From positions 1-7,383 of the forward strand of contig JAFQVE010000269.1 of NCBI GenBank assembly GCA_017408185.1: a stretch of DNA of 7,383 nucleotides. The letters are read 5' to 3'. The notes under the pieces were generated by a model. The model ran no database searches, was not told the DNA's origin, and worked only from the letters and a program-made list of their open reading frames with translations. The translations under genes and the position numbers were made by a program. Origin of the DNA: Oscillospiraceae bacterium. Its GTDB lineage: Bacteria > Bacillota_A > Clostridia > Oscillospirales > JAAYXM01. How positions within the stretch are numbered: the stretch's first letter is position 1; each line of letters begins with the position of its first letter. Positions 3,553 through 4,711 of this stretch are shown here, piece by piece.

Positions 3553-3606
3553 TTATTCCTTTTCAAGTGCGAGGGTTCTTGTTGTGAGGTCGCAAACCTC
3601 TGCCGG
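3553..3606 (-). pseudogene. Duplicate of the last 54 bases of pfp (direct repeat, left copy)
   Basis: Read on the minus strand, this encodes PAEVCDLTTRTLALEKE followed by TAA, identical in protein to the end of the intact pfp at 4658-4711. The only nucleotide difference is position 3574 (G) against 4679 (A). This is a third-position change within a Thr codon (ACC against ACT). Upstream on the minus strand, homology to pfp stops abruptly and the nuclease gene stop codon (3611-3613) follows after four bases. It is a displaced or imported gene end, not an expressed gene. Confidence 0.85.
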
Positions 3607-3610
3607 GTAA

Positions 3611-4484
3611 TCATTCGCTCTTTTCTTTTTCTTGTTGCTGCAAGTAAAACATCGCTTTTTGTGCCTCAATTTCTGATTTTAATTCTTCCTCAGTTGGGAG
3701 ATACAGCTTATATTTACTTGCGAATAATTGTTCGTTTCCATGCATTACAGAATATTTTGCAATATCGGCATCCGTTTCGGAGCATAATACTATGCCGATA
3801 GTCGGGTTGTCTCCTTCGCTTCGCTTTAACTCATCATACATTCTGATATACATATCCATCTGCCCGACATCCTGATGCGTAATTTTCTTTGTTTTAAGGT
3901 CAATCAGTACAAAGCATTTAAGAATGTAGTTATAGAAAACAAGGTCGATGAAATAGTCCTCTTTCTCCGTTTGGATATGCTGCTGTCTTGCAACGAAAGC
4001 ATAACCTTTCCCCCATTTCCATAAGAAACTTCTGTATGTTTGAAATAATACTTGTTTCAAGCTCTGTTTCCGTGAAACTCGCATTCTGTCCTAAGCCAAG
4101 AAATTCAGCAACAACAGGATTCTTGATAAATTCAAGCTTGTCAGCTTGATATTCTGCTGTTATCTCTTTCATTTCGCTTTCTACAAGTTCTTTGCTTTGA
4201 GATTGTAACAGACGATGATAATATTGTGATGCTATATTTCTCTGTAGGGTTTTAACGCTCCAAGTTTGCTCTGCGGCTTCTTTCGCATACCATTCTCTTG
4301 CAACAGGGTCATGAACCTGTACCAAAGTTCTGTAATGCGACCAGGAAAGCAAGGACAGAGATTTTCCACACGGCGTGTGGAAAATGTTTGGGAACATCTT
4401 ATAGAATGAATAAAAGCTGTAAAGATTTGTTTTTGTAAAGCCTTTTCCATACGCATTTGTCAAGCGTTCTGACAACTTCTTCAT
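3611..4484 (-). pseudogene. DUF1016/YhcG-family PD-(D/E)XK nuclease, frameshifted and N-terminally short
   Basis: The two halves lie in different minus frames. Bases 4484 to about 4011 encode the helical DUF1016_N part (MKKLSERLTNAYGKGF, then LLSWSHYRTL near residues 45-54, TWSVKTLQRNI at 74-84, KNPVVAEFLGL at 121-131). Bases about 4012 to 3611 encode the nuclease part. Removing one G from the coding-strand G5 run (4010-4014) joins QKFLMEMG to KGYAFVARQ and gives about 290 residues. In that joined numbering the PD-(D/E)XK residues are Asp180 (YFIDLVFYN), Asp195-Leu-Lys197 (VLIDLK) and Gln208 (GQMDMY), all in the second half. The C-terminus is complete (LYLPTEEELKSEIEAQKAMFYLQQ). Relatives usually carry some 40-50 further N-terminal residues. 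Here an in-frame TAA at 4509-4511 blocks extension, and no ribosome binding site precedes the ATG. It is probably inactive, unless the extra base is a sequencing error. The biological role of the family is not settled; members are scattered accessory genes. Confidence 0.85.
4361..4385. repeat. Perfect 11-bp inverted repeat inside the nuclease gene
   Basis: Arms 4361-4371 (ATTTTCCACAC) and 4375-4385 (GTGTGGAAAAT) are exactly complementary around a GGC loop. On the coding strand this lies in the NIFHTPCGKS segment just before the conserved LSWSHY motif. It is in frame, so it may be a coincidental or inserted palindrome in a variable loop of the family. Confidence 0.6.
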
Positions 4485-4497
4485 TATGTTTAAAACA

Positions 4498-4526
4498 ATT
4501 ATACCATATTAATCATATCTGTACAA
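4498..4526 (-). promoter_or_regulatory. Near-consensus SigA promoter abutting the nuclease gene
   Basis: On the minus strand TTGTAC (4521-4526) is followed by a 17-base spacer and TATAAT (4498-4503), with TGG before the -10 giving an extended -10. The predicted transcript would begin near 4491, only about 7 bases before the ATG at 4482-4484, so the mRNA would be nearly leaderless. The rest of the gap to 4610 is AT-rich, and I see no other feature in it. Confidence 0.65.
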
Positions 4527-4610
4527 CTGATTTGAATGAATTTCTGCACCTTAACAAATAAAAATCCAACTTTCAAATAATTTATACTTTAATGAAATCG
4601 AAAAGACGAA

Positions 4611-4639
4611 ATGACCTCCGGCAGATTGCCGGGGGTCAT
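4611..4639 (-). terminator. Hairpin terminator downstream of pfp
   Basis: Arms 4611-4623 and 4627-4639 pair over 13 bp with one G-T wobble and a three-base loop. It starts 19 bases after the pfp stop codon on the minus strand and is followed by a broken T-rich stretch (TTCGTCTTTTCG). The GC core (CCTCCGGC) resembles that of the hairpin at 3494-3540. Confidence 0.65.
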
Positions 4640-4657
4640 TCGTATGAAGCTCTTTAA

Positions 4658-4711
4658 TTATTCCTTTTCAAGTGCGAGAGTTCTTGTTGTGAGGTCGCAA
4701 ACCTCTGCCGG
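4658..4711 (-). repeat. Direct repeat, right copy (native 3' end of pfp)
   Basis: This is the 54-bp partner of 3553-3606 at an offset of exactly 1105 bases, with one mismatch (4679 against 3574). It is the functional end of pfp. Both copies contain a short dyad, GAGGT-CGCAA-ACCTC (3586-3600 and 4691-4705), near the edge that faces into the pfp gene. Confidence 0.9.

Follow-up and report, generated by a model that had tools for sequence, protein, structure and literature searches.

A duplicated pfp 3' end around a decayed DUF1016/YhcG nuclease gene: possible scar of incoming DNA

The pfp end and the DNA between its two copies

The window (the whole stretch of 7,383 nucleotides that was analysed) carries an intact pfp gene, a second copy of that gene's 3' end and, between the two, a broken nuclease gene (Table 1). 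A preliminary description of this DNA had stated that the last 54 bases of pfp are duplicated in direct orientation, 1105 bases apart, and our repeat search gives the same 53/54 identity for this core (3553-3606 / 4658-4711); the repeat in full covers 59 nt (3548-3606 / 4653-4711) at 95% identity and a spacing of 1105. Exact repeats in the window reach 32 nt, against a maximum of 16 in 100 dinucleotide shuffles. Near-identity of the 54-nt copies stops at the pfp stop codon; both copies are in frame, their sole difference is silent (ACT/ACC), and the DNA beyond copy A is unrelated to that beyond copy B. The hairpin noted earlier near copy B proved real, its arms being perfect. The pfp start codon was picked by eye, in an ORF that opens at 6364. 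A search of the window against Rfam gave no match.

Table 1. Features of the locus, in window coordinates
Feature	Position	Strand	Remark
Convergent neighbour	1991..3487	+	Pfam Beta-lactamase fold (serine hydrolase); context only
Terminator-like hairpin	3494..3540		22-nt perfect arms; between copy B and convergent gene
pfp 3' end, copy B	3553..3606	-	Remnant behind nuclease gene
DUF1016/YhcG nuclease gene, broken	3611..4484	-	Frameshifted; about 75 N-terminal codons absent compared with L186
Palindrome in nuclease coding sequence	4361..4385		12-nt arms, 1-nt centre
Promoter region (TGTACA-16 nt-TATAAT, 4525-4498)	4474..4558	-	84% match to intact relative L186
DNA after copy A	4559..4657	-	Hairpin 4611-4639 by eye; terminator scan gave hairpin no score
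pfp 3' end, copy A	4658..4711	-	End of intact pfp gene
pfp, diphosphate--fructose-6-phosphate 1-phosphotransferase	4658..6316	-	Intact; TIGR02477 E 3.8e-245, PF00365

The DNA between the copies is AT-richer, as had been said: its G+C content (3607-4652) is 0.37, that of pfp 0.49 and that of the window 0.45. The sole family found there is DUF1016_N plus YhcG_C, on the minus strand and split over ORFs 3930-4484 and 3611-4084; both Pfam domains (PF17761, PF06250) score above their curated cut-offs, on separate ORFs (E 3.2e-25 and 1.2e-45), and both pieces are matched by the PDC-S02 models of PADLOC, in which we take PDC to mean phage-defence candidate. The earlier statement that the insert carries only a PD-(D/E)XK nuclease gene thus stands as to the one family, but it had overlooked the 5' truncation and the frameshift. 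The absence of a recombinase was also correctly noted: our ORF and family searches of the insert found no site-specific recombinase, only the nuclease.

The closest relative, L186 (G247:C36), has an intact nuclease gene with 92% DNA identity to the window copy over 871 nt, and a further 88 bp upstream, including the promoter-like site, match at 84%. About 75 codons that lie in L186 between the two shared stretches, promoter and ORF, are absent from the window copy; with these codons missing and the frame shifted, the window nuclease gene is dead. The L186 gene follows an oadA/pycB-like gene and has flanks unlike those of the window, so that sharing extends to the promoter and the nuclease gene but not to the 1105-bp cassette proposed earlier. 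Copy B lies 19 bp from the segment shared with L186 and copy A 99 bp from it; nothing after copy B or in L186 matches these 99 bp (4559-4657). It is because this stretch has no partner behind copy B that we read the two copies as gene ends of different origin.

Relatives of pfp and of the nuclease gene

Among 80 pfp relatives (4 of these loci with less than 500 bp of downstream sequence) neither a second pfp end (searched to 4 kb downstream) nor a DUF1016 gene nor any match to the insert or to the flank 2801-3547 was found. The search for an empty site in relatives, as had been proposed, yielded no syntenic site in these 80 loci; nor was synteny seen in 28 genomes from the order to which the closest pfp carrier belongs, which gave only scattered matches. 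The two closest pfp relatives by protein are MAGs labelled Clostridia. The identity profile of pfp against ten relatives contains no break marking a foreign end, which neither helps nor excludes such an end, since a close donor would leave no trace. L003, the closest of 12 pfp ends compared, matches copy B at 51/54 and copy A at 50/54 and so does not tell which end is the resident one.

The nuclease gene presents a different distribution. All 36 pairs among the window and eight close relatives (L108, L110, L185-L189, L197) were compared at E ≤1e-6; three pairs, among L188, L189 and L197, could not be placed against an ORF, and in 31 of the 33 placed pairs similarity is confined to the ORF within 4 nt, among the matches listed (up to three per pair). 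The exceptions are window/L186, which share the promoter, and L108/L189, which share a 45-bp downstream piece. Neighbours of the close relatives include a WYL gene, nuoF-like and pyridine-nucleotide oxidoreductase genes, GntR and YceD genes and a TOTE primase-helicase gene and, as named by eye, an HAD gene with aroE-aroK and an hsd operon; the L188 and L197 sequences end at or near the gene start, so that one side is unseen. All nine genes are in different surroundings, with no common target. From these comparisons the nuclease appears to behave as a bare mobile gene, and the window appears to hold a scar left by one member of a family of such genes.

Several side observations concern the same genes. 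The DUF1016 copy of L189 is followed by the 45-bp piece that is also found behind the copy in the hsd operon of L108; this gene copy may thus look like one that departed from such an operon. The DUF1016 genes of L185 and L188 are 94.6% identical in different surroundings, with similarity ending 12 nt before the L185 stop; the L188 gene is followed by a further palindrome and, by eye, apparent transposase remains. Upstream of DUF1016 in L100 there is, by eye, a MITE-like long imperfect inverted repeat that begins GGGGAAGCGCTGATT and ends AATCAGTGCTTCCC.

More widely, DUF1016/YhcG genes occur in 61/246 genomes of one order (E ≤0.001), and a viral scan found two DUF1016 loci, one of them inside an apparent hsd operon. 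Some genomes hold many YhcG_C matches, some of them partial (9, 7 and 6 in G403, G553 and G496 respectively). E. coli yhcG was set aside as a model of insertion: in the loci opened its position is constant, with gltD or yhcF on one side and nanQ on the other, also with deletions and in IS-truncated versions, and it is uninformative on insertion.

Other DUF1016 loci were scanned for flanking direct repeats (E ≤1e-6) in two samples, one assembled from three different searches and the other from a single search, with 40 further places hand-picked off its list. The first scan was supplied with 58 loci, of which L090 was too short and L089 and L093 are one gene. Repeats were found at 7/57 loci in the first sample (L083, L162 at the L125 locus, L168, L170, L182, L190 at the L116 locus, and L205) and at 7/67 genes in the second (L230, L236, L251, L260, L266, L275, L286), and none at the remaining 50/57 and 60/67; L110, L130 and L137-L139, covered in one scan only, have no separate repeat at this threshold. 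Around pfp the control count was 0/170 genes, and in the second sample's own loci 1/32; the control is imperfect, and 7/67 against 1/32 is by itself a weak contrast. Seven chosen footprints (four from the first sample, three from the second) give a Fisher p of 0.005 against 1/202, having been picked after the data were seen.

Repeat lengths differ between loci: 77 bp at 91% behind a MATE-like gene in L083; 76 bp at 82% at the hsdM end in L116, where DUF1016 lies between hsdM and hsdS; 237 bp at 88% at a hydG-like end in L125, with DUF1016 antisense; 55 bp at 93% plus 35 bp at 94% in the start region of a kinase-like gene in L170; and 199 bp at 98% at a PC4/YdbC-like gene end in L286, whose left copy meets the contig start and whose right copy appears complete (all gene names by eye). 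L168, L182, L205, L251, L260, L266 and L275 were rejected as clean footprints, their repeats being distant from the gene, dispersed or paralogous; L236 may be a paralogue pair. A 35-bp repeat that brackets the gene in L131/L203 (E 3e-6) was rejected as a target repeat; it is the palindrome motif treated below. At the hydG-like locus (L125/L161/L162), genome G336 has a CRISPR-like repeat array behind DUF1016 and G310 a few repeats between hydG and DUF1016.

In four cases (the window, L116, L125 and L286) the repeat is a gene end, and in each the two copies run to a stop codon at the same position, with similarity breaking off there or no more than 5 nt away. The stop codons themselves differ between copies in three: TAA/TAG in L116 and L125, TAA/TGA in L286. 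Pooled differences between copies fall at third codon positions in 29/45, with p 2e-5 against an expectation of 1/3 and p 0.014 against 0.47, our own rough estimate for copying followed by decay. Case by case, 4/4 differences are silent in L286, the codon changes in L116 are 4 silent and 6 non-silent, and those in L125 are 17 silent and 7 non-silent, with a 1-nt deletion in the remnant. The different stops in these three cases suggest two alleles rather than a copied target.

A palindrome within DUF1016 genes

The palindrome in the window's nuclease gene has counterparts in many of its relatives. Defined by arms of at least 8, a loop of at most 5 and at least 6 G/C, palindromes lie inside the ORF of 40/54 DUF1016 genes in the first sample, against 30/230 control ORFs and 8/137 neighbour ORFs, and of 45/67 in the second, against 8/91 (Fisher p 3e-18 and 7e-15); these counts leave out L090, L093, L162 and L197 (loci that are short or repeated; a palindrome is present in L162) and L218 and L226 (the same genes as L286 and L285), respectively. 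The position is restricted: 36 of the 40 start at nt 264-364 of the matched gene, and most in the second sample at nt 250-310. The longest palindromes measure about 27 bp, and most occupy a single site in the coding sequence. Compared with 60 synonymous shuffles of each of 41 genes, the palindrome exceeds all of them in 20 and is no longer than shuffles commonly give in 9. Where the gene has no internal site, one is present within 200 nt upstream in 5/14 (first sample) and 2/22 (second), the rest having none by this measure.

In 78 odd-length sites, selected for arms of at least 8, symmetry mostly extends to 13 nt from the axis and then fades; at -13 to -10 the bases most often seen are AATT, and directly ahead of the centre CA; 45 different versions of the six-base stretch at positions 4-9 occur. 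Mismatches at positions 9-11 are G-T in only 2/20, a rarity which argues for a DNA site over an RNA hairpin. A pattern taken from four sites occurs at one place per genome in four genomes, in the nuclease gene; with 16 fixed bases this is a weak test. E. coli yhcG (L160 from K-12, L165, L167, L208-L213) has one to three palindromes, identified partly by eye, mostly with the core CAGAC..GTCTG and with outer arms that vary between strains on both sides; they lie in the gene's most variable block (nine alleles examined, eight aligned).

The palindrome sits at the position of a loop of the N-domain, whose modelled fold resembles Noc/ParB DNA-binding domains; in the model made from intact relatives this match ranks above unrelated folds. 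A sequence search of the PDB with DUF1016 profiles gave nothing convincing. It appears that a candidate binding site for the protein lies within many DUF1016 genes themselves, and its arms differ between genes. No link between palindrome and scar was seen: L083 and L170 are scarred and have no internal palindrome. A more ambitious proposal, speculative and unlikely, is that solitary DUF1016/YhcG genes are self-addressed mobile genes, in which a Noc/ParB-like domain would read the gene's own specific palindrome and a NucS-like domain would cut, self-recognition aiding spread as a bare gene and a replacement end for the neighbouring gene sometimes coming along. A palindrome of this kind within DUF1016/YhcG genes is not described in the literature searched, most of it outside subscription papers.

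Origin of the repeat and comparison with known systems

The starting point for an interpretation is observed: the repeat, the unrelated DNA after both ends, the silent differences, the bare-gene distribution of the relatives and the decay. Our preferred reading, held tentatively and falling somewhat short of probable, is that the repeat is the scar of incoming DNA: a piece comprising a close relative's pfp end, the DNA behind that end, and a solitary DUF1016/YhcG gene with its promoter. It would have been joined on one side by homologous recombination inside pfp and on the other by illegitimate joining at CCGGCAGAGG of the resident pfp; pfp would have remained complete, now closing with the incoming end, and the final 54 nt of its former end would have persisted behind the nuclease gene, which would later have lost its start by deletion, and its frame too. 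Such an insertion does not require that the nuclease itself took part. In this scheme we infer the one-sided homology, the direction of events and the identity of the donor. It accords with the single pfp end and the lack of DUF1016 in all 80 pfp relatives, with the sharing of promoter and ORF alone by L186 behind its oadA-like gene, with the ORF-confined similarity in 31/33 placed pairs, and with the silent and stop-codon pattern of the four gene-end cases; joining with one-sided homology is moreover a known process, as the accessible portions of PMC3240628 describe it. Against it stand the absence of both donor and empty site (80 pfp loci, 28 genomes), the unbroken pfp profile against ten relatives, the L003 comparison that leaves the resident end undecided, and the single-base difference between the pfp ends, which fits a recent copy as well. 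Of the supporting cases, L116 and L125 carry 6 and 7 non-silent codon differences and the L125 remnant its 1-nt deletion, CRISPR-like repeats complicate L125, and the left copy of L286 is at a contig start.

The main rival, which we consider rather unlikely, is a long target duplication, in which the nuclease gene with some preceding DNA inserted itself and 54 bp of target were copied. Duplications of tens to hundreds of bp and of variable length, with no transposase and a restriction-like nuclease, match descriptions of R-M genes in the available parts of PMC3874152 and PMC3031569, and at L083, L116 and L170 the repeats are near the gene on both sides, at about 0-180 nt. The critical stretch is 4559-4657: the 99 bp that separate copy A from the segment shared with L186 are unmatched at copy B and in L186, so that plain target duplication needs them to lie inside the inserted element; had they arrived within it, this account would fit the window equally well. 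The silent and stop-codon differences in three of the four gene-end cases fit two alleles better. An empty site of the form pfp-54mer-GAAAAACC-hairpin (3494-3540) would be compatible with this account and with the replaced pfp end alike.

The preliminary description had seen here a possible element that inserts in a gene's 3' end, either a very small non-autonomous cassette or a remnant; the corresponding model is a small circular integrative element with a pfp-end attachment site, integrated by a recombinase in trans. The direct repeat, the intact gene with a restored end and the AT-rich insert are as expected of it, and part of the idea survives: an insertion that brought a replacement gene end agrees with the 0/80 relatives with a second end and with the similar pattern at a few DUF1016 genes. 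For a dedicated element we found no such support, and we see only a slim chance of it: no recombinase was found in the insert, L186 shares promoter and ORF alone behind an unrelated gene, close relatives are at different targets, and repeat lengths vary between loci. For pfp as a specific target, the location of close nuclease relatives at other genes, the lack of a recombinase and the repeat-free state of most DUF1016 loci are likewise contrary. Homing, in which the nuclease would have cut an uninvaded pfp end and been copied in during repair, is very unlikely in our judgement. The nuclease gene does move with little or no flanking DNA, and the 5' edge of copy B could be a cut point; but a homing insertion normally destroys its own cut site, whereas here pfp regains its full end, so that the site would be left open to recutting, and most DUF1016 loci have no such repeat. 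As for an assembly artefact joining the pfp ends of two strains in one contig, the contig is possibly metagenomic, but the novel joins lie outside the repeat, not at it, and similar patterns occur in other assemblies; we give this little credence.

The preferred reading, a replaced pfp end, would make the window scar an example of how a DUF1016 gene can settle behind a metabolic gene and leave that gene whole. Genomic islands can insert in gene 3' ends and restore them; the window resembles these in its direct repeat and the restored end of an intact target gene, and differs in that no integrase was found and there is no constant target. Homology-facilitated illegitimate recombination, in which one side joins by homology and the other illegitimately, and DNA is added, is known from transformation and conjugation experiments (PMC3240628, in its accessible portions), whereas our case is inferred from sequence.

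By its domains the window nuclease belongs to the DUF1016/YhcG family, although this copy is dead. The accessible parts of the relevant papers describe DUF1016 as a PD-(D/E)XK family with a helical N-domain of unknown fold (PMC1189080), and place it on mobile elements and among genes shared by horizontal transfer (PMC10782964, PMC4316617); the palindromes treated in PMC7967276 are, in the part available, REP elements. In the portions of the DUF1016/YhcG literature examined, no function is established for the family, and neither bare-gene movement with a gene end nor a self-palindrome appears. The modelled N-domain fold and the palindromic site within the gene itself recall Noc/ParB proteins. 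Spo0J has a parS site in spo0J. The DUF1016 domain differs in being fused to a NucS/EndoMS-like nuclease, in the gene-specific arms of its palindrome and in that binding is putative; the palindrome is a directly testable candidate ligand for the family.

R-M genes offer the nearest precedent for such movement, their insertion with long target duplication having reportedly been described by Nobusato et al. (2000) and Furuta et al. (2010). According to the available text of PMC3874152 (also PMC3031569, PMC4978471), insertion of some R-M genes is accompanied by target duplications that are long (about 100 bp) and variable, and these genes move unlinked to other elements. The window shares with these a nuclease gene free of transposase, long variable repeats, different targets and a gene-sized mover; it differs in that its insert is a solitary DUF1016 gene with no methylase, that the gene-end copies look like two alleles, and that copy A is 99 bp off the segment shared with L186. 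Should the mobile unit be the bare gene, DUF1016 would join restriction-modification genes as a transposase-free mover.
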